Below, piece after piece: positions 2,502 to 52,782 of a stretch of 64,000 nucleotides of DNA. The stretch is from contig CP048718.1 in the NCBI GenBank assembly GCA_022641835.1, forward strand, positions 1,054,001-1,118,000. The letters are read 5' to 3'. How positions within the stretch are numbered: the stretch's first letter is position 1; every line of letters starts with the position of its first letter. This stretch comes from Petasospora fabianii (lineage: Eukaryota; Ascomycota; Saccharomycetes; Phaffomycetales; Wickerhamomycetaceae). The position numbers and the translations under genes are program-made. Under the pieces are notes generated by a model. That model was given only the letters and a program-made list of their open reading frames with translations, did not search any database and had not been told where the DNA came from.

Positions 2502-3570
2502 CTAACCAAGGACCACCAAAACCTTCTCGTAGATTGTAAAGACAATACCACCGGAAAGAATCAATCTACCGAGTCTTGGAGTTGCGCCTTTCCAGAAGGT
2601 CTTCAACCCCTCCTCCTTGAAGATGGTCACGAAACAGTTAACGGTACTCGAGTACTTGTCAGATGCACCCAATGCCTGCATTCTTGTCTTGACAGTGTCA
2701 ATTGGCATGGTGGTGTAGACAGTGACGATACCGGAGAAGGCACCAACAACAAAAGTCAAAGCTGAACTGAGTGGTTGTTCAGGTGGAGTGTTGGAGGCTG
2801 CCTGGATTGAAGACTTAATTTTATTGTAACAACCAAGTCTAACCGCCTGGTTGGATGCCTGACGAAGAGATACCGGCAGAACACCTGCGTAAAGACCCTT
2901 CAAACCGAGATCCTTAACACATTTGACGGAGGAGAGCATACCAGACTGGTACTTTGGTTTTGCAGCCTGCTTGTCATCAATCAATGCAGTCTTGATGGCC
3001 TCGAACGGTGTCACAGCAACGACTGACTCGAGAAGTCCAGCACCGAGACCAGCAATAACACCACGAGGTCCAGAGAGCTTACCGTCTTTGTCGGCCAACA
3101 TCTTCTTAATGGAGTCAAAACCGAGGAATCTGACAGATGCTTTGACGGTGTTACCAACAACAAATGCTGGACATCCTGTGTATAAAGCACCAGTGCCTTG
3201 TGTCTTTGCTGTATTGTAAATGAGCACGAGGGGGTTTCGTGACGCTTTGGAGTTCTTATCGATGAGCTGAAGACGGGTCTTAGCAAATTCGAAAGGGTAC
3301 TTTGATGATGATGTTAGTTCGCCATTTGAAAAGTCAATAACGTTTGCTTTTACTTACTGTGATAACACCTTCAATGGCACCAGCAGTACCACCGGCAATG
3401 AAAGACTTCAATGGATCAATTTTCTGACTGGTGCGTTAGTTCTCGGCCTGAGATGAGGATTGCTGACCAGTCGATTTCTCGGGCCAAGTGAAGTCAAGTT
3501 GGCGGAGAAAAAGAAAGACTGGAAGATTCAAAGAGCCTCATACCTTTTTCTGTTTATCCTGTGTGCTCAT
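2502..3570 (-). CDS. CTP1: mitochondrial citrate (tricarboxylate) carrier, two introns
   Basis: Inner-membrane carrier of the SLC25 family that exchanges citrate or isocitrate for other tricarboxylates. Three exons are proposed: 3544-3570, 3358-3423 and 2502-3299. Intron 1 (3424-3543, 120 bases) starts GTATGA and intron 2 (3300-3357, 58 bases) starts GTAAGT; both carry ACTAAC shortly before the acceptor and both are phase 0. Splicing restores the first carrier signature across the exon 2/3 joint (EGVIT then YPFEFAKTRLQ), giving about 296 residues against 299 in yeast Ctp1. The second and third repeats are in exon 3 (TPFEAIKTALIDD, MPIDTVKTRMQ). It is divergent from the NBL1-like gene, with 290 bases between starts. 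Single-exon annotation would lose the first transmembrane helix. Confidence 0.95.
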
Positions 3571-3860
3571 GGTGTTAATTGATACTTTATTATACAAGAT
3601 CGAGCTGAAGTGCCTTGTCTTCGGGTGCATGGAAGAGGGGAGAAAGCAGGACAAATTCTCAGATCTCTTCGATGAACTGACTCTCGCCGATGACGGCGTG
3701 ATGGAGCGAAAACGGCGGCAGGGGCACATAACTATATTTGCAACCACAGATGTAGTTTCGCGGGACCTCCAGATCTTTGTTTACGTTTCTGGATTGATGG
3801 GATTTCGGATCTCCCACATTTACTCTTACAAATCCACCGCCCTTTCACTTACCAAGGAAG

Positions 3861-4343
3861 ATGCCACATTTCACTAGTTCACAGAAACGAAAGCTTATCG
3901 AGAGATTTGAGCTGCAAAGTACGTGGTAACCGCCCAGCCCAGTTTCCCATCGCTTCAGTACTAACGCCCATCAATCAGGAGAACAGAGAAAGAACAACCT
4001 AGAACGAGAGCTTGAGAAACTCACTACCATTATGGAGTCCAAGGTTTCACGGAAACTGGCTCTTGTTCCGAAAAAATTCGCTGAGCTTCGTATTAAGGAC
4101 GTTCTTACCGTTGAGAGAGATCACAAGATCAAGATTTACGAGTTGATCAAAGATGTGGATGTCTTGCACAAGAAGGAAGCACAAGCTCTTCACAATGAGA
4201 CACAGTTGAGGGAGGAGTTTGCTAAGCTCAAGAAGAAGAAGCAGGAAAACATGCGTACCCTCCAGAAAAGGAAGGAGAGTATGGCCATGATGGCTAACAA
4301 CAGGGTCTCGAAGCCATCCAAGACGGTTAAGAAGCGCAACTGA
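3861..4343 (+). CDS. NBL1: borealin N-terminal domain protein, NBL1-like, one intron
   Basis: Likely the small borealin-like subunit of the chromosomal passenger complex, which bundles with the survivin (Bir1) and INCENP (Sli15) homologues to place Aurora kinase at centromeres. Exon 1 is 3861-3918 and exon 2 is 3979-4343; the 60-base intron starts GTACGT, has TACTAAC at 3959-3965 and ends CAG. The joined product is about 140 residues. Residues 8-65 show the borealin pattern: a helix around KRKLIERFELQ, a long charged helix, then ALVPKKFAELRIKDVL, equivalent to the 'lP..lr.m...df' region of the family. The rest is coiled coil with a lysine-rich tail. It is longer than S. cerevisiae Nbl1 (about 73 residues). 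Identification rests on a short diverged domain, so another coiled-coil kinetochore protein is possible. Confidence 0.6.
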
Positions 4344-4613
4344 CTGTTTTTGAAAAAGAAAAAAAAAAAAACACACCATATCACGATGCTCATGACACCT
4401 CGCAATATTATACGTTATTTATGAAAACGACTATGTCTATGATCTCAACAGTTGTAGTCCAGCGGGAAGCGCTCTGCGGCAGCTTCGAGAAGATGATAAA
4501 AAAACGCGCACGCTTAAAACTTGCACGCGTTGAAGCAAACTTGCCTCTCTCAACCTTTTAAGGTCGTTACAACCACGAACCATTGCTACGCTACCACTCC
4601 CCCCGTTTCAGAT

Positions 4614-5648
4614 ATGTCAATAGTCTCGGGTATCAGTTCCCTCTCTGGTGAGAGCTGCCTCGTCAATGGGCTGCTCTACTTCTCCCTCGCTCTCGGTGTC
4701 GTGAAGCTCACCACCCTCGTTCTCTCTTATTCTGCCATGCTTCTTGACTTGTTCGTTCTCCCACCAGTCAATTTTAAGAAGTATGGTGCCAATACTGGAA
4801 AATGGGCAGTGGTCACTGGATCCTCTGACGGTATCGGTAAAGAGTATGCGGTTCAGCTGGCTAAGAAGGGCTTCAACATTTTCCTTATTTCCAGAACTCA
4901 GTCTAAATTGGATGCCCTCTCCGAGGAGATCTCCTCGAAGTATAAGGTTGAGACAAAGTCTTTGGCCATTGATTTCGCCTCGGATAAGCCATCGAACTAC
5001 GAGCTTATGTCTCAGGTCATCAAGTCATTGCCAGTCACCATTCTCATCAACAACGTTGGTCAGTCTCACTCAATTCCAGTTCCATTTGCTGAAACTGAGG
5101 AGCAGGAATTGAGAAATATCATCACTATCAACAATACAGCCACTCTGCGTACCACCCAGATCATCATTCCATATATTCAAGATACTCTCAAAGCTAACAA
5201 GGGCACGCGTGGTCTCATCCTCACTATGGGTTCGTTTGGAGGCTTACTGCCAACTCCATACTTGGCCACTTATTCCGGTTCCAAGGCTTTCCTCCAAAGT
5301 TGGTCTGCTGCACTTGCTGGTGAATTGTCTCCACAGGGGATTGATGTCGAGCTCGTCATCTCCTACCTTGTCACTTCTGCCATGTCCAAGATTAGACGTG
5401 CCTCCATGACTATTCCAAGCCCAAAGGTGTTCGTTGCCTCCACATTGAGAAGTGTCGGTCGTCGCTGTGGTGCTCAAGACAGATTTGCTACAGTTACCCC
5501 ATTCTGGGCTCATGCCTTAATGCAGTGGTGGATTGAGAACACAGTCGGTGTCTACTCTAAGGTTGCTAACACTTTGAACTTGAAGATGCACCAGGATATT
5601 AGAAAGAGGGCTTTGAAGAAGCAGGCTCGTCTACAGAAACAGGAGTGA
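4614..5648 (+). CDS. IFA38: very-long-chain 3-oxoacyl-CoA reductase
   Basis: ER membrane beta-ketoacyl-CoA reductase, the second step of the fatty acid elongation cycle that makes C20-C26 acyl chains for sphingolipids. The product is 344 residues (yeast Ifa38, 347). An N-terminal hydrophobic segment at about residues 20-50 anchors it. The short-chain dehydrogenase core follows with the cofactor motif [12 protein letters not shown], a serine in TMGSFGG and the catalytic YSGSK. A lysine/arginine-rich C-terminus ([15 protein letters not shown]) fits an ER retention tail. The start at 4614 was chosen because MSIVSG precedes the membrane segment; the frame is open upstream to 4521, but that extension looks unlike the family. 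Confidence 0.93.
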
Positions 5649-8057: not shown

Positions 8058-9206
8058 ATGGTTTCTTACAAAAGGGTATGTCACAACTCATGTCTCCACA
8101 ATTTTCAAATGAACATCACTAACTCACAAGCAAAGGCTGAAGATGAAGAAATGGTACTCTACGAGGCACCTTCTGGAAGTATCCCACAGCAGGAGACCCC
8201 TGATGACCCTACCCAAGAGAATGCAACAAGCAGAGACTCTCTCCTATCGTCATTTGACGCTGACGACTTAAACGCCATCGAAGGCAGTAAGACATTTGAC
8301 ACACGCTTGGGAAATGACATCGAGCTCGACGATATCACGAGAAATATTCGTGATGCCACCTTCAATGCAGAGGCACCAACCACATCTAATACTGGTACAT
8401 CCGGACCATCACTATCGTCGCAGGCTACACAGTTCAATATGCAGACTATTGGTTCCCGCTTCAACATCTTGGACAGACTCTCGTTCTTTCAGACAGCAAA
8501 GCCAACTGGTATTGTGGGGCGTGGCTCTGAAAACGATGGTGTCTTCAGTAACATGTCAGCCAAGCCCGACGGCCAGCCTCAAATTGAGGGCGACAAGCCA
8601 CCAACATACGACGAAGCGGCAGCTGATGCCACTCCTCCGTACTGGGAGAACTCCATCCTCACTCCGGGTTTCAATGATGAAGTGTTCGTGGACGGACTTC
8701 CTGTGGGTAACATTATCAACTTCATCTGGAACTTGCTCGTTTCTTCAAGCTTCCAGTTTGTCGGATTCCTTTTAACATACATCCTTCACACATCCCATGC
8801 TGCCAAGCAAGGCTCCAGAGCTGGTCTCGGTATCACTTTCATCACATATGCATACTCTATGATCCCAACGTCACATTCATTTTCTGAGAACAACAATGTT
8901 GTCGCTGCATCAAAGGTCGACCCTTCTGACCCTAACAACTTTGATCTTTCATCAGGCAGTGCAGTCGTTGAGGGTTCTGTTGACGACTTTCACTCCACTC
9001 TCTCAGCAGGCATAGACTTGGGAGATGAGCAAGTGAATGTTACCAAAGTTTATCTTTTTGCCGCTGCTGTCGCTCTATTCGGTTCGGCGATCATATTTAA
9101 GGCCTTCAGGGACTATCACAGGGCAAGAAAGATGGAAGAAACCATTCTTGCTCCACCAACTGCTACTGCTGTTTCTGAAACATCGGAACAGCCTGAGATG
9201 GTCTGA
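8058..9206 (+). CDS. BSD2: BSD2-like Nedd4/Rsp5 adaptor membrane protein, probable short in-frame intron
   Basis: Endosomal or Golgi membrane adaptor that recruits the ubiquitin ligase Rsp5 to cargo such as metal transporters. The PPTY motif in DKPPTYDEAAADATPPYWE binds WW domains. It is followed by the family hallmark GLPVGNIINFIWNLLVSSS, then a segment running through HAAKQGSRAGLG, with about three hydrophobic segments near residues 215-350. A 60-base segment at 8076-8135 looks like an intron (GTATGT donor, CACTAAC, acceptor AAAG). Its length is a multiple of three and it has no stop, so the gene reads with or without it: 382 residues unspliced, about 362 spliced. The N-terminal 200 residues are acidic and low in structure, as in the family. 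Confidence 0.92.
   Translation: MVSYKRVCHNSCLHNFQMNITNSQAKAEDEEMVLYEAPSGSIPQQETPDDPTQENATSRDSLLSSFDADDLNAIEGSKTFDTRLGNDIELDDITRNIRDATFNAEAPTTSNTGTSGPSLSSQATQFNMQTIGSRFNILDRLSFFQTAKPTGIVGRGSENDGVFSNMSAKPDGQPQIEGDKPPTYDEAAADATPPYWENSILTPGFNDEVFVDGLPVGNIINFIWNLLVSSSFQFVGFLLTYILHTSHAAKQGSRAGLGITFITYAYSMIPTSHSFSENNNVVAASKVDPSDPNNFDLSSGSAVVEGSVDDFHSTLSAGIDLGDEQVNVTKVYLFAAAVALFGSAIIFKAFRDYHRARKMEETILAPPTATAVSETSEQPEMV
8076..8135 (+). other. probable 60-base phase-0 intron in BSD2
   Basis: Consensus GTATGT donor, CACTAAC branch-like site about 15 bases before the acceptor, and AG at 8134-8135. Removal joins MVSYKR to AEDEEMVLYE. The removed 20 codons (VCHNSCLHNF and following) look unlike the acidic sequence around them. 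Confidence 0.6.
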
Positions 9207-9639
9207 TGAGACCTCCATTATCGAGGAACGTTGATGTCATTTATGATTTAGTGTTTTGTTGTTGCTTTTTTATGTCTTTATTTTTTTTCGTTCTTTTGCT
9301 TTCTTTTGTGTATATCTTGGGTAAATGAAGATCGGTTACTGTTTTATCTCTGAACTAGTATACTAAATGTGCTGGCCTGCAACATGGAATCTTAGTTGCA
9401 GCAGCTGGTGGTCCGCTCCATTCCGAGAGATGTATTATCGCATCTACATTGATCGACTTGTAAGAAAAGGACAGAAGATTGAGTTTCAGCTCTACTGAAG
9501 CTAAGACCAAGATTTTATTGGTGTCTCTTAAAGCATGTTGATGTGCTATACCTCTATGATAAGTCAATCTGCAGGTTAACAGTTATCGAGTACACGAAAA
9601 ATATTAGGCGATATCTGAAACAGAATCTTCGAGTTTGGA
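9207..9639. other. BSD2 downstream region, left border of the LTR-rich interval
   Basis: T-rich terminator-like sequence follows BSD2. From about 9360 to 9640 I see no gene and no convincing LTR match. Confidence 0.4.
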
Positions 9640-9926
9640 CATATAATCTGATGTTGCTCCTCCATAAATATCCAGACACCTGCTTAATCCGGATAACCTG
9701 GAGTATATACGACAGAGAAAGACCAATGTATGGGGGGGCAGAAAGCGCTCTACTATTTCATCAAGTAATAAGTGTTGGTGGTTGTAACCTCTCAACTATT
9801 GCCTATCACTGTTGAGCCCCAATGGGTCTTCGAGTCAAGATCCACTGGAGACACACTTACAGTAGTGGCAGGCAGAGTAGTATATTAAGGGTAAAGAGTG
9901 TATAAAGCAGAGAAAGACCAAGTTAT
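9640..9926 (-). mobile_element. two degraded LTR pieces
   Basis: Around 9700-9760 the segment GAGTATATACGACAGAGAAAGACC resembles, with many differences, the R-region sequence of the younger LTRs. From 9810 a piece starts TGTTGAGCCCC and continues through a GTGGCAGGCAGAGTAGTAT stretch; it matches the reverse complement of the LTR at 13698-13967, so it is a minus-oriented copy of that second LTR subfamily. Old relics. Confidence 0.6.
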
Positions 9927-10334
9927 TGTTGGATCATGAGTATCTGGGTTTTGACGTCAGAACTCATGATTACAATAGTAAACAGATCAGAGTTATATAT
10001 TCAGGGTTTTAAGAGTATATAAAGCAGAGAAAGACCAAGTTATGTGGGCAGAACTTGGTCTACTTATAGTTTCAGCAAACAGACATGGGGCAGAGCAGCG
10101 TGGCCCTATTAGCTGACAAACAACAATAGCTGACAAATAACAATAGCTGACAAACAACAACAGTTGACAAATAACATGATGACAAACAATCGGCACTAAC
10201 CATGTAGACAGTAATAGATTAGTGCCTGACAACCAATATCCAACAATAAGTTAGCGTTTGACAACCAATATGTAAATCGTGATAAGCAATAGTGATAGGC
10301 AATAGTGAGCGTGTTTGACAACCAATATTCAACA
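9927..10334 (-). mobile_element. Ty5-like LTR, minus orientation, with foreign U3 material
   Basis: Starts with TGTTGGATCATGAG and carries the TGACGTCA palindrome, the TATA region and the GGGCAGAACTTGGTCTAC block like the young LTRs, and ends with CAACCAATATTCAACA. The middle holds a short tandem repeat and an internal LTR-like end (CCAATATCCAACA at about 10245). It looks like a younger LTR fused or inserted into an older one. Relic, not an active unit. Confidence 0.7.
10111..10190 (+). repeat. short tandem repeat, about 17-base unit
   Basis: Four to five imperfect copies of AGCTGACAAACAACAAT, inside the LTR composite at 9927-10334. The unit resembles the GACAACCAAT motif of the LTR ends, so it may have grown from LTR sequence. 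Confidence 0.75.
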
Positions 10335-10339
10335 ATCAC

Positions 10340-10583
10340 TACTGCTTTTCACTGTCACATATTGGTTGCCAATCACTAACTTATTTCTGTCTTGAGCTGA
10401 TACTATGAGCTGATACTAATTCTCACTTTCTATTTGCTGAAACTATAAGTAGATCAAGTTCTACGCACATAACTTGGTCTTTTTCTATCATTTATGCTCT
10501 TTACCCTTGATACATTACTCTGACTTGTCTACCACTGTAATCATGTGTTCTGACGTTAAAAACCAGATACTCATGGTTCAACA
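10340..10583 (+). mobile_element. LTR fragment, plus orientation, diverged
   Basis: Contains the U3 repeat unit (GAGCTGATACT, twice), the ATAAGTAGATCAAGTTCT and AACTTGGTCTTT blocks and the terminal TCATGGTTCAACA. It lies tail to tail with the minus-oriented LTR at 9927-10334. Differences from the young LTRs are many, so it is older. Confidence 0.7.
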
Positions 10584-11065
10584 ATAAGTGGAGACAAGTG
10601 GAAGGAAGCAGGGCGAGTCAGTATGACGTCAAGAGCAGATCAGCAGGCAAATACGGTGGTCAGATATAGGGTAGTTAAGAAGGTGTAAAAGTGATATGCT
10701 CACCGTATCAGGAGCGCTGATCGACATCAACAACCCAAACCAAAAGCGACCACACTCATGGCTTATTTCGCTGAACGAGAAGAGCCACCACATGACTTGA
10801 GAGCTTCTCAATCAGAAATAGCTAATAGATGAAGGGACTAGTAGGCACATTTGCTACAAGGCGGCGGGCAGAGCATATGTGTGTACATAGCAAAGAAAGA
10901 CCAAGTTATGTGGGCGGCTTGGTCCTATAGTTGAGGACATGGGGCGTAACATCTGCCCTAAGGCAAGGCACGAAGGATAGCCAAATTAGCGCTAGCTGTA
11001 GCGTGACACAGAAGTGCCGACATCCATAGTAAAATCAGAACCACTAATGGTGACCACAAAAAAAC
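10584..11065 (-). mobile_element. decayed LTR-derived sequence
   Basis: Patches such as AAAGAAAGACCAAGTTATGTGGGC near 10890 and ATGACGTCAAGAGCAGATCAG near 10622 match minus-oriented LTR blocks. The rest is too diverged to assign. No gene is seen. Confidence 0.5.
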
Positions 11066-11486
11066 TGTTGGATCAAGAGTATCTGAGTTTTGACGTCAGA
11101 ACTCATGATTACAATAGTAAACAGATCAGAGTAGTATATTCAGGGTGAAGACTAAGCCATTGCCAAGACCAGCTTTCCAACGACTGGTTTCCATGCTTGG
11201 ATTGTGTTGATTGTGTCTTACTGTTGTGAGATTTGACAACCAAGGGGGTTGTTGAATATTGGTTGTCAAGTGTTGACTATCACTATTGCTTATCACGATT
11301 TACATTTTGGTTATCAAACCCTAACTGTATTTCTGTCTGTTGAAACTATAAGTAGACCAAGTTCTGCCCACATAACTTGGTCTTTCTCTGCTTTATATAG
11401 TCTTCACCCTGAATATACTACTCTGATCTGTTTACTATTGTAATCATGAGTTCTGACGTCAAAACTCAGATACTCTTGATCCAACA
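11066..11486. mobile_element. foldback LTR structure with an 89-base perfect inverted repeat
   Basis: 11066-11154 is the end of a minus-oriented LTR. 11155-11249 is the 3' internal end of a plus-oriented element, ending in a polypurine tract. 11250-11486 is a plus-oriented LTR (237 bases, TGTTGAAT to CCAACA). The outer 89 bases at each side (11066-11154 and 11398-11486) are exact reverse complements, with a 243-base loop. The sharp edges suggest a strand-switch or recombination event rather than two separate insertions. Confidence 0.85.
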
Positions 11487-11562
11487 CTTGACAACCAATA
11501 TTCAACAAAAACAATAGAATCGCAACAGGCAAACAACGGGCCAGCTGGAAACCAACGTTAGC

Positions 11563-11890
11563 TGTTGAATATTGGTTGTCAAGTACTATCACTATTGCCT
11601 ATCACTATTGCTTATCACGATTTGAATATTGGTTGTCAAACGCTAACTTCTTTCTGTCTTGAGTTGATACTTCACTATTTCTGTCCTGAGGTGATACTTC
11701 ACTATTTCTGTCCTGAGGTGATACTTCTCACTATTTCTGTTTGTTGAAACTATAAGTAGACCAAGTTCTGCCCACATAACTTGGTCTTTCTCTGCTTTAT
11801 ATACTCTTTACCCTGAATACACTACTCTGATCTGTCTACTATTGTAATCATGAGTTCTGACGTCAAAACCCAGATACACATGATCCAACA
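11563..11890 (+). mobile_element. solo LTR with target-site duplication
   Basis: A 328-base LTR from TGTTGAATATTGG to ATGATCCAACA, flanked on both sides by TTAGC (11558-11562 and 11891-11895), the expected 5-base duplication. It is longer than the other young LTRs because the U3 unit containing CTGTCCTGAGGTGATACTT is repeated about three times. Downstream blocks are near-identical to the 14.5-18.1 kb element, so it is young. Confidence 0.85.
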
Positions 11891-12477
11891 TTAGCCAGCG
11901 AGATAATAGCATTAGCTAGTGAGAACCGATATGAAAGAATATCCATGGTTGTCAATGCCATATCATGTTACACAAACTAGTCACTTGCATGCTCCTTTAG
12001 GTTATTGTTTGCTGCAAGAGTTAAATATCGCTTCCTCTAACTAACCTCAAAGTGATCCCCTTCATCCTCACCATTTCTTTTCTTGCTTGGTGCAGTTCAC
12101 ACTTATAGTGTTGAATATTGGGTCTAACCTCCCAGATTTATCTACTCCAACATATAAGGACGGCTTCACTCTGAACGTGATACCAATCAGATCGCCATTG
12201 CTTGCGATCTATCCACGGTAGTGGCGTCTCAATTCAGTGGCCCTACTGTGTCCGTGACCACTGCTCTAATTTCCTCTCCTTCTGTCTATAGTTATTCCCC
12301 ATCTTCAACTGTGTCTGGTAGCTATTCGATAGCTGTCACGATTGTCACCAGTTCAGTTTGCATCAACTAGGAGTCTCCGCAATTATAACGGAGTTGATGG
12401 TAGGTAGAGAAGATGCGTTCGACGTCCATTATATGCAGCAGATAAAGACCGACGTATACCGGCAAGACCATGCCCAT
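11891..12477. other. gene-free spacer in the LTR cluster
   Basis: About 590 bases without a recognisable gene. A GTGTTGAATATTGG match near 12112 suggests an old LTR start, but the following sequence does not match the young LTRs. It may be decayed retroelement interior. Confidence 0.35.
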
Positions 12478-12752
12478 TGTTGAATATTGGTTGTCAAGCA
12501 CTCTCACTATTGCCTATCACTATTGCTTATCACGATTTACATATTTGTTGTCAAACGCTAGCTTATTTGCGTCTTGAGGTGATACTTCACTATTTCTGTC
12601 CTGAGGTGATACTAGTTCTTACTAATTCTGTCTTGAGGTGATACTAGTTCTCACCATGTTCTATTTGTTGAAACTATAAGTAGACCAAGTTCTGCCCACA
12701 TAGGCAACAGTGATAGGCAATAGTGATAGTGCTTGAAAACCAATACTCAACA
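12478..12752. mobile_element. LTR foldback: plus LTR start joined to minus LTR end
   Basis: 12478-12702 is the first part of a plus-oriented LTR with several U3 repeat units. At about 12703 it changes abruptly into the inverted terminal part of an LTR, ending CTCAACA at 12752. The two outer ~50-base ends are inverted repeats with about four or five mismatches. Confidence 0.75.
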
Positions 12753-12779
12753 ATAGTGGGCAGAAAATCAGATAATAAG

Positions 12780-12876
12780 ATAACAGATAGTACGATAACA
12801 GATTACAGATATCGGACAAAATGGCACTAATCACGTAGACAGTAATAGATTAGAGCTTGACAACCAATATCCAACA
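12780..12876 (-). mobile_element. terminal fragment of an older LTR subfamily
   Basis: Ends CTTGACAACCAATATCCAACA and shares the GTAGACAGTAATAGATTAG block with 10200-10245; a weaker match lies near 14090. The left boundary is uncertain. Confidence 0.5.
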
Positions 12877-13616
12877 TCAGCATTCTTCAAAAATTACTCT
12901 ACGCAGCTTATAGCCGCTTTTGTCATATCGTCAATTCCAATCCGTGCCCAACTCTAAATAAAGAATTCTCAGATATCCACTGTACTGAAGGCGGTTTGCC
13001 TTCAGTCTTTAATACCGCTACTGTTCATGATTGACTGCACGATTGATCAAACTCTCCACATGATTAACGGCCTGCTTGTTCTATAACCCAACCACTGCCA
13101 TTCTTGGGTCTGTTCCACATTCATCCTTTTCGAGAGTTACTAAATCTTCTCCTGGATGCCAGGGTGTTGAATCTTGAACCCCTGGTCATCGAAACCAAAC
13201 GATTACAATGCGGACAGGTAGTGCGTCTTCTGCTCGTAAAAGATTATATACTCCCCAATAGCCAGTGTATGTGGACAGACCCGGTATTATCTTAGTTCGC
13301 CAAAAGGACAAACTAGCCCCTGTCTGGCTCCTCGCAGTAGTCAATCCAACCACAGAGCCCAGACAATTGTCATCATTGCGGCATGATAGAGTGCTATCCC
13401 TTGCATGGGATATTGCCGAACTACTTGGATCTGACTCTTGAGATCAGGTGCACTCATGATAACAATGGAAGCAGGGACACCACCATATTCATATAGAGAG
13501 TATATACGACATAGGAAAAACCGAATTACGTGGGCAGAGCTTTACTACCTATAGTTTTACCAAGTGAGAAATACTGGGTAGTATCACCTCATAGTATCAC
13601 CTCAAGACTGAAATAA
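12877..13616. other. gene-free spacer with decayed retroelement patches
   Basis: Around 13490-13560 there are diverged matches to minus-oriented LTR blocks (GAGTATATACGACA, TACGTGGGCAGAGC) and to the U3 unit (TATCACCTCA). No host gene or RNA gene is seen. Confidence 0.4.
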
Positions 13617-13694
13617 TCCGCGACCTTTTTAAGGTACTCTGCAGTTTTCGCAGATGGACAGATACGAGCAAAGTGGCCCGGTTTGTGGCAGTTA
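13617..13694 (-). mobile_element. relic of gag zinc-knuckle region
   Basis: Closely matches the zinc-knuckle part of the gag region in the full element (about 16888-16966). It is a small stranded piece of an otherwise lost element copy, directly abutting the LTR at 13698. Confidence 0.75.
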
Positions 13695-13697
13695 TGG

Positions 13698-13967
13698 TGT
13701 TGGATATTGGTTGTTGCCTATTACTACTGCCCATCACTATTATCACGATTTACTTGGTTGTCAAGCGCTAACTCATTTCTGTCTTGAGGTGATACTACTT
13801 CTCACCCTGTCCTCTCTTCTGAAACTATAAGTAGCCCAAATTCTGCCCACATCCCCTGGTCTTTCTCTGTCTTATATGCTCTTGACCCTTAATACACTAC
13901 TCTGCCTGCCACTACTGTAAGTGTGCCTCCAGTGGATCTTCACTGGAAGGCCCATAGGGGCTTAACA
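13698..13967 (+). mobile_element. LTR of a second, older subfamily
   Basis: A 270-base unit from TGTTGGATATTGG to GGCTTAACA. It shares the U3 unit, the ACTATAAGTAG block and the TTATATGCTCTTGACC promoter region with the young LTRs, but its last ~70 bases differ. No target duplication was seen. Confidence 0.75.
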
Positions 13968-14216
13968 TTTGTTTGGGCTATCTACAGTTTCAGCAAATGC
14001 CCATGAATGAAGCATACATGCAACATATCATGAAACTTGTTTAGTTCACAAATAGTATGATAACAAACAGACGGAACTAAGCATGTAGGGGAGTGGTAGG
14101 TTAGTGCTTGAAAACCAATATCCTGCAAGAATCAGTAGAGGACTGGACAAATTCGGTGGTTGAGATGATGCAGCACCCATCATTCCAACAGAAAGAAGAG
14201 GTCAGCCGACTCAAGG

Positions 14217-14505
14217 TGTTGGATATCGGTTGTCAAACCCTGATCTGCTTGTTATCGGTTATCAATCTCTTTTACTGTCTAGGAGATGATTGCAGATTGT
14301 TGATACTTGCCTTTCTGCCCACTATGATTGGTGATGGGGTCATGTTGCTCCGGCCCATGTTCTACTTGCTGAAACTATTAGTAGACCACGTTGTGCAGAA
14401 CTTGGTCTTTCCATGTCGTATATACTCTTCACTCGAATACACTGCCTTGCTTGCGCCCATCATGAGCGCATCTGACCTCAATAGTCAGATCCTGATGGTT
14501 CAACA
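14217..14505 (+). mobile_element. strongly diverged LTR
   Basis: A 289-base unit from TGTTGGATATCGG to GATGGTTCAACA, with recognisable but mutated blocks (ACTATTAGTAGACCACG, AACTTGGTCTTTCC, CGTATATACTCTTC). It is among the oldest pieces in the cluster. The sequence just before it (14108-14216) may be decayed interior of the same copy. Confidence 0.65.
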
Positions 14506-14520
14506 ATTCTTTGTTGCCTT

Positions 14521-14766
14521 TGTTGGATCATGAGTATCTGGGTTTTGACGTCAGAACTCATGATTACAATAGTAGACAGATCAGAGTAGTATATTCAGGG
14601 TTAAGAGTATATAAAGCAGAGAAAGACCAAGTTATGTGGGCAGAACTTGGTCTACTTATAGTTTCAACAAACAGAAATAGAGTTAGGGTTTGATAACCAA
14701 AATGTAAATCATGATAAGCAATAGTGATAGGCAATAGTGATAGTACTTGACAACCAATATTCAACA
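14521..14766 (-). repeat. 3' LTR of the Ty5-like element
   Basis: 246 bases, TGTTGG to TTCAACA on the plus strand. It contains TGACGTCA at 14546-14553 and a TATA sequence (TTTATATACTC on the minus strand). It lacks the U3 tandem unit found in other copies. Confidence 0.9.
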
Positions 14767-14805
14767 ACCCCCTTGGTTGTCAAATTTCACAACAGTAAGA
14801 CACAA

Positions 14806-17733
14806 TCAACACAATCCAAGCATGGAAACCAGTCGTTGGAAAGCTGGTCTTGGCAATGGCTTGGTGAGAACATCAGCAATCTGCTCAGTGGTAGAAGCAT
14901 ACTTGAGTTTCAGAGTACCATTGTTAATGTACTCACGCATAAAGAAAACACGAATATCAATGTGCTTCGTTCTCGCATGGAAAACGGGATGAGTAGCAAG
15001 TTTGATAGCACCTTGGTTATCGCTCAGCACAGTGAAAGATTCAAACTTAAGTTTCAAGGACTTTAACACCGAAAGAAGCCATATGGCCTCTTTGGTACCC
15101 TCCCCTATAGCCATGATCTCAGCTTCTGAGGTGGAGGTCGAGACAGATAACTGTAGTGATGACTTCCAGCTCAACACCGCGGTACCAATCAATGTAACAT
15201 AGCCAGTACGGGACCGACGAGTCAGTGTATCAGTTCCATAGTCAGAATCTGTGTAGACTATTAAACCAGAATCAGTATCAATCGAAGAAGAGTATTCAAG
15301 ACCATAGTCACGTGATCCTGCAAGATATTTCGCGACGCGTACAGCTTGAGACCAGTCTTCAGCAGTGGGCTTCTGTAATTTTCGCGACAAAACGGAAACC
15401 GCATAAGAAATATCAACTCTGACAGTGTTACTTGCGTACAGAAGCTTTCCAACCAACGAACGATACATCTCAGGATTCTCAAGTAAATCAGAATCATTAT
15501 CATTACCAGCTGATGAAGGTAACATTGGAATAGAGACTGGAGTGGCATCAGACAGACCAAATTCAGCAAGCAGTTTGATAATGTAAGAGGACAAGGAAAG
15601 CTTGAAAGAACCATTCTCAGAAGTAGAGATATCCATACCCAGAAACTTTTCAACAGTTTCAGACTTGGTAGTCTTGAATCGAGCATAAAGAGACTTTTCC
15701 AAACGAATTCGCAACCCAGCTGATGAACAAGCAAGCAAAATATCATCAACATACAGAACCAACACCGCTTCACCATCATCACCCTGATACCTGTACAATC
15801 CGAGCTCAGAGGGGCATTGTACAAAGTTCAACGTCTCCAAGAAAGCCTTCATCGTGTGATACCACAAACGCGGTGATTGCTTGAGACCATACAAGCTCTT
15901 CCGCAGTTTCAACACCTTCCCCGGGTTCTCAGTATCAACATAACCAATTGGCTGTTTGATGTACACATCATAGTCAATGGTTCCATTCAGGAATGCGGTA
16001 CTAATATCGTACTGAGAAACACTAAGTTTCAGCAAGGAAGCAACAAAGAAGAACAAGCGGACAGTCTCATAGCGGACCACAGGAGAGTAAATGAGGTCAT
16101 AGTTGACACCATGTTGCTGACGAAAGCCCTGGGCAACCAGTCGACACTTCAAACGGCCATCGGACTTGACAACGCTGACCCAGCGAACAGGAATTGGCTT
16201 TACTCCCTCCGGACAGGTGGTCAACTCAAAGGTGTGGTTATCTTGAAGAGAGGACCATTCAGAGTCAAAAGCCTTCTTCCAGGCATCACCATTTTCCATG
16301 GAAGGACAGTCCAGTGGTGAGCGTGGAGTAGCTTGTTCAATAGCAGAAGAGGTAGCAGCAAGCAGTGCAGTAGCAACATAATTGACCTGGTTAGGTGGCA
16401 AAGTGGTCTCACATTCCAAGGTGGCAACAGAAGCAGTATCATCGGAGGACCCAATTGGAACAGTCAGACGTTGGATCTTCGTAGCAAATTCATAAGACCA
16501 GGGACCGTCAGTACCATATTCAGTCACTCTCACAGAGGACTGTTTAAAGTTGAATTCAACACCTTTGTTGGTAGCCTGGGACACGGACACAAGGTTCACA
16601 GTAGCAGATGGGACGAGTAAGCAGTCAGTCAATTGGAGAATTGACCCATTATGCAGTGGCAAGAGAACAGTACCAGTACCAGGAACTAGCAGTGGCTTAC
16701 CATCAACACCCAAGATTTCTTCATTGTCAGTTGGAGAAACCGATTTGAACCAGTTAGAGTGGTTAAAGATATGACGGGAACAACCGGAATCAAGGTAAAC
16801 AGCATTTGGCATAAGTCCGACTTCGTGCTGTGGACCTGCATCAAATCCAAACCATACATGACCCTGCTTCCGCTTGGCTTTGTATTCCGCGACCTTTTTG
16901 AGGTACTCTGCAGTTTTCGGAGATGGACACATACGCGCAAAGTGGCCGGGTTTGTGGCAGTTATGGCAAACATTAGACGATTTTCCGGCCACAAACGCAG
17001 ATGGAGAATGATCGGAGACAGATAAGGAAGTAGAAGTAGTAGTAGCAGAGGACATGTGTTCACGACTAAGCATTGAGATAGTGTCTGACGTGAAGTTGGA
17101 TAGATCAGTACCATGAAGCTGATGGTAAGCAGACACAATGGATCTGACATCATGTTCAGATCGGATCTGTGTCTGAAGCGAGGACAGGAACAAGCAGCAA
17201 ACAAAGTGTTCAGGAGAAAGCTGATGCACAACAGTTGTGCGGAACTTGGCAAAATCTTGAATAAACTTATCAATAGAGAAACTTTCGGCAGAGGAAGGAG
17301 GGGAAAACAATGTGGCAAGCATCTTCACAGCAGCAGTCACAGATACTTGGCCAAATTGTTTGACAAGGAACAAATAGAGGGCACGGCCAGACATTTGGGA
17401 GAATTGGGACAATTGGAGAACAACTGGTTTAACAGAACTGTAAATAACCATAGTAATAACATCATCATAAGCGGCAATCAACGTAGCTTCTTCTTTGGCA
17501 ATGGACTGTTCGTCAAGTCCCTCTGGGTAGGAAAGCATTGGCAAGCTAGCGTCGAGCAAATACTGGGAAAAACCGAGACCCTTAAGGCGGAATTTCATCT
17601 GAAAATTGGTGTCCCACAAGTGAAAGTTGCTTTTACCGAGAAGCTTTGAGTCTTCGGTAAACATCGTCAGGAAGGACGGCTGGCTCATAACCTGTTGGAT
17701 CATGAGTATCTGGGTTTTGACGTCAGAACTCAT
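14806..17733 (-). CDS. gag-pol-like frame of the Ty5-like retrotransposon
   Basis: A single 975-codon frame that begins inside the 5' LTR, as is known for Ty1. Parts in order: gag-like region (about 1-250), CCHC zinc knuckle (CHNCHKPGHFARMC, near 257-270), aspartic protease active site (LDSGCSRH, near 315), reverse transcriptase (LVAQGFRQQ and the YVDDILLA active site, about 480-720) and RNase H ending in ADVLTKPL (about 830-960). No other domain of a complete copia polyprotein was recognised. It is treated as a fossil or defective copy rather than a host gene. Confidence 0.85.
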   Translation of the reverse strand: MSSDVKTQILMIQQVMSQPSFLTMFTEDSKLLGKSNFHLWDTNFQMKFRLKGLGFSQYLLDASLPMLSYPEGLDEQSIAKEEATLIAAYDDVITMVIYSSVKPVVLQLSQFSQMSGRALYLFLVKQFGQVSVTAAVKMLATLFSPPSSAESFSIDKFIQDFAKFRTTVVHQLSPEHFVCCLFLSSLQTQIRSEHDVRSIVSAYHQLHGTDLSNFTSDTISMLSREHMSSATTTSTSLSVSDHSPSAFVAGKSSNVCHNCHKPGHFARMCPSPKTAEYLKKVAEYKAKRKQGHVWFGFDAGPQHEVGLMPNAVYLDSGCSRHIFNHSNWFKSVSPTDNEEILGVDGKPLLVPGTGTVLLPLHNGSILQLTDCLLVPSATVNLVSVSQATNKGVEFNFKQSSVRVTEYGTDGPWSYEFATKIQRLTVPIGSSDDTASVATLECETTLPPNQVNYVATALLAATSSAIEQATPRSPLDCPSMENGDAWKKAFDSEWSSLQDNHTFELTTCPEGVKPIPVRWVSVVKSDGRLKCRLVAQGFRQQHGVNYDLIYSPVVRYETVRLFFFVASLLKLSVSQYDISTAFLNGTIDYDVYIKQPIGYVDTENPGKVLKLRKSLYGLKQSPRLWYHTMKAFLETLNFVQCPSELGLYRYQGDDGEAVLVLYVDDILLACSSAGLRIRLEKSLYARFKTTKSETVEKFLGMDISTSENGSFKLSLSSYIIKLLAEFGLSDATPVSIPMLPSSAGNDNDSDLLENPEMYRSLVGKLLYASNTVRVDISYAVSVLSRKLQKPTAEDWSQAVRVAKYLAGSRDYGLEYSSSIDTDSGLIVYTDSDYGTDTLTRRSRTGYVTLIGTAVLSWKSSLQLSVSTSTSEAEIMAIGEGTKEAIWLLSVLKSLKLKFESFTVLSDNQGAIKLATHPVFHARTKHIDIRVFFMREYINNGTLKLKYASTTEQIADVLTKPLPRPAFQRLVSMLGLC

Positions 17734-18122
17734 GATTACAATAGTAGACAGATCAGAGTAGTGTATTCAGGGTAAAGAGTATATAAAGCAGAGAAAGACC
17801 AAGTTATGTGGGCAGAACTTGGTCTACTTATAGTTTCAACAAACAGAAATAGAGTTAGGGTTTGATAACCAAAATGTAAATCGTGATAAGCAATAGTGAT
17901 AGTCAACAACCCCCTTGGTTGTCAAATCTCACAACAGTAAGACACAATCAACACAATCCAAGCATGGAACTTGGTCTACTTATAGTTTCAACAAACAGAA
18001 ATAGTGAGAACTAGTATCACCTCAGAACAGAAATAGAGTTAGAGTTTGATAACCAATATGTAAATCGTGATAAGCAATAGTGATAGGCAATAGTGATAGT
18101 ACTTGACAACCAATATTCAACA
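17693..18122 (-). repeat. 5' LTR region of the Ty5-like element, composite
   Basis: Starts as a normal LTR (17693 to about 17909), then shows a short copy of the LTR/interior junction sequence (about 17910-17968, matching 14760-14825), then resumes LTR sequence with a U3 unit and ends TTCAACA at 18122. It looks like the product of recombination between element copies. Confidence 0.75.
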
Positions 18123-18299
18123 GAAAGTGCCCTTAAACAGTGCCCTAGACTTTGCTAAATAACCATGAAAGACTTTAGGACTTTTAAGACATCGGCCTTA
18201 TTAGGTCGGAAGTTCCGCTCTTACTGTTAGGGTATCGGGGGGATAATGCTGAAACAAAGTTTCCTTTTGATGCTCGTTTCAAGGCAACGAGTCTGCAAC

Positions 18300-19230
18300 T
18301 GTTGAATTGACTTTTCAAATCTATACTCACATTTCTGATAAGGGCTCTTCCAAGCGGTTGTACCTCCCGAAATACTCGCCGAGTTTGATATTTGTGATGT
18401 TACTGCAGTATGGATTCAGCTGCTGCCGTTCTCTGCTAGTATTGATAAATAGACATGCGTTTTCGTCAACCCTGGGACCTATGGCTCTTCGGAAGCTCTA
18501 CGTGAGCAGCACAGTTAACATTGCTTATACATCGTCAGTCTCGCCACTTATAGAAGCATGTCATTCAACACACTAGGGCTGATGTCATGCCTCGTCGGGC
18601 GCCATACCGTCTGTGTTGTTGTCAACGCCTACTCCAATCATCTAGTTCTACGTCTACGCAGAAGGTTGGAGTCATCGCTATTGGTGACGGAACCAAGGAA
18701 GCGTAGCAGCTTCGTCCTCCGGTGAGAGTCTTGAAGGTTAGAAGTTCCTCTTTTGTGGTTTTTAGTCTTCATATGGCCAACAGGCTTGTCAGTCTTCCGT
18801 TCCTAAGCCAACCATATAGGCATCGGTTTGTTTTTCACGGCACAGTGTGTTACAGTGAAGCTCAAATATGAATATAAGGCTGAACGGATTGCTGATATTC
18901 GCTCTGAAATACTTTCAAGACCAGCTTTCCAAGGACTAGTCGATCTTCCTGCTTAATTCTGTATTGTTGCTAGGTTGTTGATACAATGGCGGTTGTCAAC
19001 CTCAGACCTACTGCTATCTAAGTGGTTAGAACTGCTTATCAGCTGCCCCCTGTTGCCATACTATATCTTAGCTACATTGGTGACTCGATGTATACAGTGG
19101 ATATCGCCGCTAGTCTGTCACGGACGTTGCACCATATGTTAATCAGGCTATTCTTTCGTGGCTGGCTTTGGCAATTCTGCCCACATACTGCGGTCTTTGT
19201 TTAATCCTCATGAGATCTCATCGACCTTTT
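18300..19230 (+). mobile_element. old, heavily decayed element copy (pol end and LTR), plus orientation
   Basis: Faint matches in order: a reverse transcriptase-like patch (RKLYVSSTVNIAYTSSV, near 18490-18560), the 3' coding end block CAAGACCAGCTTTCCAA at about 18908, then LTR-like sequence from about 18976 with TTCTGCCCACATACTGCGGTC near 19175. Much older than the 14.5-18.1 kb copy, with many breaks. Confidence 0.5.
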
Positions 19231-19908
19231 GAGTGTATTGTTTCTGATCCAAGAATCAGAATAACACTTTTTAAAATCGTATGAACTGTACCGGGAAGCA
19301 CTGTTAGTATGGCAATTTTGTGACACAAAAAATCCATGACGCGAAAGGATAGTGTGACCCAAAGACGCTATGTATGATCCGTGTGTACTTCACTTCGGCG
19401 CACGAGGCACCGTCCAAAGCGTGGTACCACGAAGAGAAAGATATATGACCGGGCATCCCTTAAAGCTTTCAAACGCTCCAAAGTAAACTTGGTAATAGAG
19501 AATGACGTAGCGTCTCGAAGAGTATCTTTAATCGAATCTAAACCGCAGAAGCTTTTGGAAAGATTCAATATCTGCCCAAATTGTATCGGTTTTTAAAGTT
19601 TTGAGGTGGGCCCCTCAGATGTCTTCTTGATAAGCGTCTTTCTACATTGTTCGTTTTTTGATTTCACAAGTAGAGAAGATGATGATGACCAATCATGAGG
19701 AAGGCATTTTATTGGATATCAAACATTTGGTCTCTGAACAGTTATGACTTGTGCTTAGTCAATATACTTAATTCTCTTCATTTGCCTTAGTTCGTTTAGG
19801 CAAGTATCTACGTGCTGAAAGGTACATTAGTAGGCAGGCGAGGACGAGATGGTGCATGAGGGCAAAGCCATTAAGATCTTTTCAAGGTAAACTTATACAG
19901 ATTCAATT
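19231..19908. other. gene-free right border of the LTR cluster and PUS4 downstream region
   Basis: About 680 bases. A 71-residue open frame at 19381-19596 is basic and resembles nothing I know. No LTR block is recognised. The PUS4 stop lies at the right edge. Confidence 0.4.
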
Positions 19909-21135
19909 TCACTGTTCTAGTGTATCCTCAGCCTGTCTTTTAAGTGGGTTGATATCCTCTTCGAGAGTGGAAGTTTCAAGATGCTGATTAGCTTCAGTGT
20001 TGGTCTTGATACTTTCAAGGATATCCTGTTCATGCTGCTTCTTCAAATCAACATCTTTCTGTGCCTTCTCGAACAAGTCTGAAAGACTGTGCACATTTTC
20101 ACCACCCTTTTCAAAAACTTGCGACAAGACCTGGCCCCAAACTGCTTCATCTTTTAATTCAAAATCTTCAATTGTGAACACATTTTTCCCAAGTTCCCAT
20201 TCAGCCTGTTGTGTTCTCTCGAGTTTTACCATGTAAGCATTGGACTTGAGTGCTCTTCCAATGTCACTAATGAGAGATCTAATGTAGGTCCCGGAGCTGA
20301 CCTTAGCCCTGAAATGCAAAAGTGGTGCCTTGAAGTCGTCAGCCTTTTCCTCTTCACTCACTGGTTGTGGTTGCAGATGCTCAATCTCATCACTAATACC
20401 GTTTTTCTCTGAGTACTCTTGTGATATGTACAGTTTACTGTCATTCAATGTTGGGTTCTTGGCCAGCTTATCTTCAAGCTTGTCGCCATCCACCTCCGCA
20501 CTTTTAATCATCTCATATGCGTGGTCCGTGGAAAGCGTATCTTCAAAAACCTCGAGCTCATAAACTTCAACTGAGCGTGGTTCAATGGCTTTAGGAAGCG
20601 GAAGACCCTCTCTGGCGTACTCATATAGTGGCTTACCGTTCATCTTCAAAGCAGCGAAGATTGGTGGGGTCTGTTTTAGATGACCTGTGAACTTCTCTGA
20701 TATCGTGGTCACATCATCCTTTGTGAGATGCTTCGTTCCAGCTCTTGTAAGGACCTCACCTTCAACGTCACCAGTGGTAGTAGAAGCACCAAAAAGGGCT
20801 TTTGTTTCATAGGTCTTCACACTTCCACTCAGATAGTTCTGGAGCTTCTTTGTTCCTTTACCGACACCGACAACCATCACACCCGTAGCGAGCGGATCCA
20901 GTGTTCCACCATGGCCCATTTTGACTTTCATAACCTTTCTCAGCTTTCTTCTGGATGCTCTTTGGCCTTCCTTCTGCAATTGCTGAACTTTGGCGCCCCG
21001 AAGATCTGCAAGGTCCTGGGAAAACACTGAGGACTCCGTGAAAAGTCGTTGCAAGCGTGCCAGGAACTGGGCTGATGTGATCCCAGTTGGCTTGTGAATG
21101 GCAAACACACCGTTCATGTCGAGCTTGTCTGTCAT
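19909..21135 (-). CDS. PUS4: tRNA pseudouridine-55 synthase
   Basis: TruB-family enzyme that makes the conserved pseudouridine 55 in the T-loop of nuclear and mitochondrial tRNAs. The product is 408 residues (yeast Pus4, 403). Near the start is GVFAIHKPTGITS; the catalytic aspartate is D80 in GHGGTLDPLATGV, followed by VGKGTKKL, KTYETKALFGASTTTGD and the late RSLISDIGRALKS motif. The start gives a product that aligns from its first residues. It lies 115 bases downstream of ERF4 in the same direction and forms the first host gene right of the LTR cluster. The C-terminus from about residue 360 is glutamate-rich and not part of the fold. Confidence 0.95.
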   Translation of the reverse strand: MTDKLDMNGVFAIHKPTGITSAQFLARLQRLFTESSVFSQDLADLRGAKVQQLQKEGQRASRRKLRKVMKVKMGHGGTLDPLATGVMVVGVGKGTKKLQNYLSGSVKTYETKALFGASTTTGDVEGEVLTRAGTKHLTKDDVTTISEKFTGHLKQTPPIFAALKMNGKPLYEYAREGLPLPKAIEPRSVEVYELEVFEDTLSTDHAYEMIKSAEVDGDKLEDKLAKNPTLNDSKLYISQEYSEKNGISDEIEHLQPQPVSEEEKADDFKAPLLHFRAKVSSGTYIRSLISDIGRALKSNAYMVKLERTQQAEWELGKNVFTIEDFELKDEAVWGQVLSQVFEKGGENVHSLSDLFEKAQKDVDLKKQHEQDILESIKTNTEANQHLETSTLEEDINPLKRQAEDTLEQ

Positions 21136-48463: not shown

Positions 48464-48919
48464 TCAGCGTTTGAACTTGCGTGGCTGAGCTGGCTGCTCG
48501 TCTAACCTCAAGCTTGGTGATTGGAAATGGAATTCATTGAAAAGATTTGGAGACATTGGGCTAACAGTGGATTGGGATGTAAGAGATGGTACTGAAGAGA
48601 TAGAATCTTCATCGTTGTCAATTCTCTTGATGTGATTGAGGAAGTCAGAGTGCTCTTTCTGTGAGATGAGACTGAGAGAGGAGAGGTTCTCAATGTGTTG
48701 TGACCTGAGCTGATCGGAGGAATTCTTCATACGAAGTGCCTTCTTCGAGTGTTGGACATAAAGTTGCTGCTCCTCTGTGAGTTGGTCCTCCGAGAATCTA
48801 AGTGTTAAATGTCTCTCTCTGAGCCTAATGAGTCGCCATGTGTTTTTTGGGTATCTTCTGAACTCGGGTTGTGTACTTGCTTCTGTTGATGATTGTTTTG
48901 TGGTTGGTGTGGCGGACAT
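48464..48919 (-). CDS. unrecognised small hydrophilic protein
   Basis: A 151-residue frame beginning MSATPTTKQSS; the frame is open 18 codons further upstream. The middle is basic and helical (RRYPKNTWRLIRLRERHLTLRF, then EEQQLYVQHSKKALRMKNS). The C-terminal third is rich in serine, with SP sites (STVSPMSPN, QSPSLR) and a basic end (PRKFKR) that could be a nuclear signal. The SP sites are compatible with CDK control but prove nothing. No family was recognised. It stands alone between two long gene-free stretches, and codon use is gene-like. Confidence 0.6.
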   Translation of the reverse strand: MSATPTTKQSSTEASTQPEFRRYPKNTWRLIRLRERHLTLRFSEDQLTEEQQLYVQHSKKALRMKNSSDQLRSQHIENLSSLSLISQKEHSDFLNHIKRIDNDEDSISSVPSLTSQSTVSPMSPNLFNEFHFQSPSLRLDEQPAQPRKFKR

Positions 48920-52182: not shown

Positions 52183-52782
52183 ACGCGTGACGCGTCGTGC
52201 TGACGCGTCTCATCAACGCGCAAAGGGAAACGGATGACGCGTCTCCTTTGGATTAAACAATAGCGAGAAATGTACAATCCCGAATGTCCACTGCATCTGG
52301 CCACACAGAATGGGGCCATGGACCTTCATGGTTAGGGGGGCTGCTAGGATGTTCTACTACCCCAACCCGAATCAGGCAATAGACTACATAAATGTAAAGC
52401 GTCTGGGAAATGGTGGGGCACAACTTCAATTACACTACCTGATGCGGAAAACACATACACATAAACATATACACCAAAGTGACAGACTCACAGATAAGCA
52501 TATATACTTTACTAGCATATTGTTAGGATGTTTAATGGTGATTTGTTTATAGTTATATTTATGGGTCGGATGAGATCTAAGCTGATCTAACCCCTTTAAC
52601 AACCGCAAGCCTCCAAACAATCCTCATAATTTCAAAAGTCCAAAGGCCCCACAAGACGCGTTTTTCGTCTAGGTTGGCCAGCTTAACGAGCCTTTAGATT
52701 TAACGCGTTGCCAAAACATTTTGCACTGCGGCAGTTGGAAGGGGAACCTTGCATAGCGCAGCGCATTCAAAACACAACGCGT
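52183..52782 (+). promoter_or_regulatory. MCB array upstream of the PCL1-type cyclin
   Basis: Seven exact ACGCGT sites: 52183, 52190, 52203, 52237, 52656, 52703 and 52777 (start positions), in two groups. The motif is expected about once per 4 kb by chance. MBF binds it in other yeasts to drive G1/S transcription, and yeast PCL1/PCL2 are G1/S genes, so the array probably controls the cyclin at 52987. Confidence 0.75.

Follow-up and report, generated by a model that had tools for sequence, protein, structure and literature searches.

Clusters of Ty5-like retrotransposons and long terminal repeats (LTRs) have already been published as centromeres of Scheffersomyces stipitis, Ogataea polymorpha and Cyberlindnera sargentensis, according to the main text of the chromosome-conformation-capture (Hi-C) study of Hession et al. 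2025 (PMC12711049; for O. polymorpha also PMC6053246). In C. sargentensis, a single Ty5-like cluster per chromosome lies at every Hi-C peak and no non-Ty5 sequence common to all of the centromeres was found (PMC12711049). Centromere structures of the Phaffomycetales are described there as changing whilst their chromosomal positions are largely constant, with 1 of 49 mapped centromeres having moved over a long distance. In S. quercuum and W. anomalus, CEN3 is flanked by PCL1 and HTB2; in W. canadensis it adjoins PCL1, and in C. sargentensis, for which a CEN3 shift of about 60 kb is reported, it falls between PUS4 and UGA2 (PMC12711049).

A comparable arrangement was found in a 64,000-nucleotide stretch of DNA (i.e. 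the window), in which a Ty5-like element and numerous LTR copies occupy a gene-free interval between a BSD2-like gene and a PUS4-type gene. Judged from its sequence and gene order, this interval (i.e. 9.2–19.9 kb) is likely to be the CEN3-type centromere of its chromosome in a Cyberlindnera-like yeast of the Phaffomycetales. An earlier note on this DNA had put the region forward as a candidate centromere; that proposal is supported, not proved, by a PUS4 flank as at CEN3 of C. sargentensis (PMC12711049, main text) and by a nearby H2B gene and PCL1-like cyclin. If this assignment is right, it adds a Ty5-cluster centromere to those of the Phaffomycetales and a further flank arrangement to those of CEN3.

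A Ty5-like LTR cluster in the largest intergenic gap

The end of the BSD2-like gene (9206) and the start of the PUS4-type gene (19909) are separated by 10,702 bp without a recognised host gene, in agreement with the roughly 9.6 kb of host-gene-free DNA on a gene-dense chromosome described previously. Gaps between recognised open reading frames (ORFs; n = 22) had a median of 452 bp and a second largest value of 4,013 bp, with the weak ORF of 169 codons at 48464 included among the genes; minus that ORF, the second largest gap is 5.9 kb. The region 9300–19800 contained 45 stop-to-stop ORFs of at least 60 amino acids, many of them overlapping or antisense to the element. Four of these (starting at 14105, 12158, 13186 and 18271) were searched against Pfam in addition to the long ORF of the element and none gave a match at E ≤ 1. 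Among the ORFs displayed from the flanking parts of the interval, no codon score exceeded +0.07; the score is a poor discriminator, given that ORFs of known genes ranged from -0.27 to 0.39.

The distribution of LTRs was examined by blastn using the 246-base 3' LTR of the element (minus strand, 14766 to 14521). All 26 matches at E ≤ 0.01 fell inside 9701–18122. Relaxing the threshold to E ≤ 10 raised the number to 67, of which 12 lay beyond 9300–19900 with a best E of 2.0, and the best E in 20 dinucleotide-shuffled windows was 0.013. A profile made from ten LTR copies produced 29 rows at E ≤ 1; 17 of these had E < 1e-3, were distributed over both strands, fell entirely within 9700–18122 and covered 3,092 bp in total. 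A single row was located outside the cluster (5026–5096, E 0.15); the lowest E reached in 20 shuffled windows was 0.32. Neither method detected a second LTR cluster elsewhere in the 64 kb. The 17 matches include the two LTRs of the coding element, leaving 15 others where the earlier note had counted at least six in both orientations. The edges given in that note (9640–19230) also fit, as LTRs extend over 9700–18122, coding remnants reach 18947 and a weak LTR-like stretch was detected by the profile at 19173–19203 (E 0.077).

The LTR copies differed widely in age. Whole LTRs exhibited TG...CA ends, and divergence from the 3' LTR among ten aligned copies extended from 1.9% (the partner LTR) to 17.8%, with the eight others at 3.1–17.8%; the oldest pieces found by blastn were about 76–78% identical to the 246-base LTR. 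This spread indicates several age classes and, along with remnants of reverse transcriptase and RNase H that contain stop codons, bears out an earlier description of old decayed copies of several ages. A perfect 5-bp target duplication (i.e. TTAGC) was present at one of ten boundary pairs examined, that of a solo LTR, and absent at the other nine. This duplication is a mark of integrase-mediated insertion, indicating that such insertions also reach the cluster.

Gene order and competing explanations

The confinement of Ty5-like LTRs to this interval, its status as the largest gap, the Ty5 character of the element and the surrounding gene order together point to a centromere, and the gene order provides support that is independent of the Ty5 cluster. 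The PUS4-type gene adjoins the interval and the other landmarks of CEN3 gene order lie within the same 64 kb, with H2B at 25.6 kb (5.7 kb to the right of the interval) and the PCL1-like cyclin at 53.0 kb (33 kb to the right of it). The probability that a published centromere flank is matched on one side by chance is about 0.5%, a rough estimate from 14 flanking genes in about 6,000 and two sides. The name PUS4 was assigned from family, length and neighbours; the best PDB match of the protein was TRUB1 (E 5e-35), and the matches of Cbf5 entries were confined to a short stretch at the C-terminus (E about 1e-10). The PCL1-like label was assigned from Pfam and the company of RIM21 and MON2. A block at 25.6–36.7 kb comprises UTP20, H2A, H2B, an RMD1-like and an NHP10-like gene. 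The Saccharomyces cerevisiae counterparts of this H2B-H2A-RMD1-NHP10-UTP20 block adjoin CEN2 and CEN4, going by their systematic names. PAP1, which is found at the left end of the window, is listed as YKR002W and PUS4 as YNL292W (PMC2075469); this name places PAP1 second in order from CEN11.

Several observations weigh against assignment of the interval to CEN3. The left neighbour is BSD2-like and not UGA2 as at CEN3 of C. sargentensis, so that one flank only matches, and the main text of PMC12711049 makes no mention of BSD2. Only about 7.5 kb separate the end of the LTR core from H2B, and 35 kb separate it from the cyclin, as compared to the shift of about 60 kb in C. sargentensis, and the names PUS4 and PCL1 themselves rest on family matches and neighbours. 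UGA2 could be located to the left of the window, and the BSD2 flank and the differing distances may reflect a different species or arrangement. In addition, the authors of the Hi-C study take the Ty5-like elements of W. anomalus as neighbours of the centromere and not as the centromere itself (PMC12711049, main text), which means that the precise position of Cse4 could be next to the LTRs.

Comparison with the described systems shows both likenesses and differences. The C. sargentensis centromeres share with this locus a single cluster of Ty5-like elements and LTRs in a large intergenic region, the position of CEN3 beside PUS4, and inverted repeats that are only those formed by retrotransposon parts (PMC12711049). 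All copies in C. sargentensis are, however, called non-functional pseudogenes in the main text of that study, whereas one frame of 975 codons is unbroken here; the C. sargentensis flank is UGA2 and not BSD2-like, and the present cluster is closer to both H2B and the cyclin than a move of about 60 kb would place it. Ty5-like centromere clusters also occur in O. polymorpha, which belongs to a different order (i.e. Pichiales), and S. stipitis centromeres likewise contain clusters of Ty5-like retrotransposons and LTRs (PMC12711049). Both species had been offered as comparisons in the earlier note and are confirmed by this source; the third, Debaryomyces hansenii, is unconfirmed, being unmentioned in the main text of PMC12711049 and in the text available for PMC7175516 and PMC6053246. 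Elements Ty5.1, Ty5.2 and Ty5.L of W. anomalus resemble this element in having an initiator-tRNA primer site, in occupying centromeric intergenic regions and in including a non-autonomous form (PMC12711049). Ty5.L has 2.4 kb of noncoding DNA between its two LTRs, in contrast to the element described here, which retains Gag, protease-type and reverse transcriptase regions, and the 21-bp motif of W. anomalus is missing from this window.

If the interval is a centromere, Cse4 nucleosomes would assemble somewhere inside it and the site would be specified either epigenetically or by LTR sequence. Ty5-like elements would accumulate there by being drawn to centromeric chromatin, in which insertions would harm no gene. 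A serious possibility, albeit the less probable one, is that these elements are merely centromere-associated, with the true centromere residing in a short motif or in an epigenetic site that carries no sequence mark, either inside the interval or next to it; in location, this explanation overlaps with a centromere at 9.2–19.9 kb. In W. anomalus, Ty5-like elements are found at the centromeric regions of two isolates and in none of a third, leading the authors to describe them as centromere-associated (PMC12711049), and the present cluster is a patchwork of fragments that differ in age. On the other side, there were no matches in the window at ≤3 mismatches to either the W. anomalus 21-bp motif or the S. 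cerevisiae CDEIII consensus, and no non-Ty5 sequence shared by all C. sargentensis centromeres was found (PMC12711049). A sequence-defined centromere of the CDEIII or 21-bp type was rejected as a candidate on the basis of these searches. Comparison with C. sargentensis and with element-free isolates would help to decide whether Ty5-like elements make centromeres or are drawn to them.

It is improbable that the cluster is simply a graveyard of retrotransposons, with many others like it elsewhere in the genome, that lies in silent chromatin or chromatin of low recombination and has no connection to a centromere. Ty5 of S. cerevisiae does gather in subtelomeric and silent mating-type chromatin (PMC7175516), showing that Ty5 clusters need not be centromeres. 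The position of the present cluster, however, coincides with the mapped CEN3 neighbourhood of the Phaffomycetales (PMC12711049), the remainder of the 64 kb contains no second cluster, and the window reads as an ordinary gene-dense arm. Even less credence was given to a centromere at 47.1–53.0 kb beside the PCL1-like cyclin, with the LTR cluster being an ordinary safe-haven hotspot for insertions. Three other Phaffomycetales have their CEN3 at or beside PCL1 (PMC12711049), and 47.1–53.0 kb, which ranks second in size among the gene-poor stretches of the window, comprises almost 6 kb without a recognised protein gene save the 169-codon ORF, which lacks a Pfam match. This region nevertheless contained no LTR match (blastn E ≤ 0.01; profile E ≤ 1) and no repeat of >25 nt among those found, and it carries the snR40 C/D-box small nucleolar RNA gene (51492–51582, minus strand, Rfam); in the Cyberlindnera species that was mapped, CEN3 adjoins PUS4 and not PCL1 (PMC12711049). 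Nine of the 17 ACGCGT sites of the window also fall in this region, seven of these within the 0.8 kb upstream of the cyclin (52183–52777). We take these to be probable MBF-type cell-cycle elements as expected of a G1-cyclin promoter, so that 47.1–53.0 kb reads as promoter DNA. On these grounds, a centromere at this location was judged unlikely.

The coding element and its possible route of entry

The long ORF of the element encodes, in an unbroken frame of 975 codons, Gag, a CCHC zinc knuckle, a protease-type beta-barrel (DSG at 315) and reverse transcriptase (YVDD at 661), followed by an RNase H-like end that was recognised by eye. Matches were obtained to the Ty5-type Gag family (PF17241, E 7e-13) and to Ty1/copia-type reverse transcriptase (RVT_2, E 2e-63, profile 1–243 of 244). 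A PDB search with this ORF returned five matches at E ≤ 1, the best being zinc-knuckle nucleocapsids (E 0.07), and none for the reverse transcriptase. The protease-type and reverse transcriptase domains are separated by 106 residues, and no integrase family was listed for the ORF at E ≤ 10 in Pfam, the filters of which discard most matches above 0.1. As no integrase was recognised between protease and reverse transcriptase, the element is presumably a non-autonomous Ty5 derivative and not a complete Ty5. Thus, of the 'near-complete Ty5-like element' proposed previously, the Ty5-like part stands on the PF17241 Gag and the primer site whilst the near-complete part does not. The sequence GGTTATGAGCC directly after the 5' LTR is complementary to the anticodon stem of S. 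cerevisiae initiator tRNA-Met. The main text of PMC12711049 describes a primer site of this type as diagnostic of Ty5.

Ty5 of Saccharomyces has in common with this element the Ty5 Gag family, a Ty1/copia-type reverse transcriptase and the primer site; it differs in having an integrase, none of which was recognised here. An interaction between the Ty5 integrase and Sir4 reportedly targets silent chromatin (work attributed to Xie et al. in 2001). An open Ty5-like frame that lacks a recognisable integrase is the unusual detail of this locus. Narrow term searches of the literature, made without preprints or figures, found neither a BSD2-PUS4 arrangement nor an integrase-less Ty5 frame at a centromere, and no priority is claimed; the word integrase is absent from the main text of PMC12711049.

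As the coding copy lacks a recognisable integrase, three routes of entry can be proposed: it may have used integrase from another copy, its complementary DNA (cDNA) may have recombined with resident LTRs, or integrase may have been lost after insertion. The 5' side of the element is composite, consisting of a partial LTR, about 65 nt of an element 3' end and then an LTR without its first 32 bases, and no target duplication was found around this composite. The absence of a recognisable integrase from the open frame, the lack of a target duplication and the tandem LTR, element end and LTR at the 5' side suggest the recombination route. It is conceivable, though doubtful, that an integrase-less Ty5 derivative restocks the centromere by recombination of its cDNA into resident LTRs, with the array acting as a self-renewing homology trap. 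The solo LTR flanked by TTAGC argues against this route, as integrase-made insertions occur here too. LTR similarity gave a mixed clue. The 5' and 3' LTRs of the element exhibited 4 mismatches in 214; in the final 156 alignment columns, a solo LTR is nearer to the 5' LTR (one difference) than the element's own 3' LTR is (two), whereas over the whole alignment the 5' LTR is nearer to its own 3' LTR (4/214) than to that solo LTR (10/214). The 5' LTR may not be the original partner of the 3' LTR. With its open frame lacking integrase, this element offers a means of testing whether such elements can enter centromeres by recombination.

Other copies and host genes of the window

Coordinates of the interval, the element, the other copies and the flanking genes are collected in Table 1. 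The two foldbacks recorded in the earlier note were recovered, one pairing 11063–11154 with 11398–11489 (99% complementary, 243 nt between the arms) and the other pairing 9923–10007 with 10503–10587 (84% complementary, 495 nt between). The head-on junction of a Gag fragment and an LTR (13613–13925) and the foldback at 11066–11486, which is built from a partial LTR, an element 3' end and a whole LTR, appear typical of self-integration or template switching. The decayed coding copy was detected by tblastn at 18792–18947 (E 6e-07), 18369–18488 (E 0.002) and 18671–18823 (E 0.006) and by blastn at 18264–18306 and 18848–18940; a possible further piece at 18129–18176 reached E 5.7 only. LTR copies at 11651–11740 and 12571–12651 contain 27- and 32-bp tandem repeats, respectively, and the LTRs of the coding element are without them. 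An exact 47-base LTR stretch had no occurrence in bacterial and archaeal genome contigs, and five pattern-matching stretches in viral contigs included no confirmed relative of the element; both are unfair places in which to seek yeast DNA.

Table 1. Features of the proposed centromere interval and its flanks (window coordinates)
Feature	Position	Strand	Basis
Gene-free interval, proposed centromere region	9207..19908	.	largest intergenic gap in window
LTR-bearing core, 17 LTR matches at E < 1e-3	9700..18122	.	blastn and profile
Ty5-like ORF, 975 aa	14806..17733	-	Pfam and motifs
3' LTR of element, 246 bp, TGTTGAATA...GATCCAACA	14521..14766	-	blastn and profile
5' LTR of element, LTR positions 33-246 (first 32 bases gone)	17693..17906	-	blastn
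Primer binding site GGTTATGAGCC, 11 nt, directly after 5' LTR	17682..17692	-	motif match
Putative polypurine tract AAGGGGGT beside 3' LTR	14767..14774	-	inferred assignment
Remnant upstream of 5' LTR: element 3' end of about 65 nt, including a polypurine tract, followed by partial LTR (17966-18122)	17907..18122	-	
Older, decayed Ty5-like copy: pieces of reverse transcriptase/RNase H containing stop codons, opposite in orientation to coding element	18264..18947	+	
Gag zinc-knuckle fragment (element aa 257-284), abutting first base of plus-strand LTR	13613..13697	-	
Older LTR copy, 17.8% diverged from 3' LTR	13698..13925	+	
Solo LTR with internal 27-bp tandem repeat and TTAGC duplication (11558-11562, 11891-11895)	11563..11890	+	
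LTR, right foldback arm, after polypurine tract and element 3' end (11136-11207, tblastn)	11250..11486	+	
Partial LTR, left arm of 11250-11486 foldback	11066..11154	-	
LTR copy split by insertion; inverted pair with 10332-10583	9927..10245	-	
Partial LTR	10245..10334	-	profile
Old LTR copy, 16.6% diverged over 10427-10583	10332..10583	+	
Partial LTR with internal insertion	12478..12702	+	profile
Partial LTR	12700..12752	-	profile
Old partial LTR	13423..13565	-	profile
Old, nearly full-length LTR	14218..14505	+	profile
Old partial LTR	9700..9784	-	profile
Partial LTR	9851..9926	-	profile
Partial LTR	10879..10932	-	profile
Left flanking host gene, BSD2-like	8058..9206	+	NEDD4/Bsd2 domain
Right flanking host gene, PUS4-type TruB pseudouridine synthase	19909..21135	-	TruB_N

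The window is gene-dense eukaryotic DNA with the gene content of a budding yeast. Its poly(A) polymerase (i.e. PAP1) exhibited 67% identity to the yeast enzyme in the PDB (359/533 aligned residues), and further yeast genes were recognised as UTP20, RIM21/PalH, a chitin synthase, MON2 domains and histones H2A and H2B; the MON2 ORF had no PDB match at E ≤ 0.01. CTG codons of PAP1 stood opposite leucine at eight of nine alignment positions, making the CUG-Ser and CUG-Ala clades unlikely. S. stipitis is a member of the CUG-Ser clade and differs from this yeast in that respect. No tRNA genes were found in the window by ARAGORN, which was run with the bacterial code and could miss intron-bearing yeast tRNAs; targeting of tRNA genes is thus not indicated. 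To the left of the BSD2-like gene are a kinase, a short-chain dehydrogenase/reductase (SDR), a mitochondrial-carrier ORF and PAP1. Within 2502–4613, the mitochondrial-carrier ORF is just 199 amino acids long and is adjoined by ORFs at 3467 and 3930, which may be parts of another gene, possibly with introns or assembly errors.

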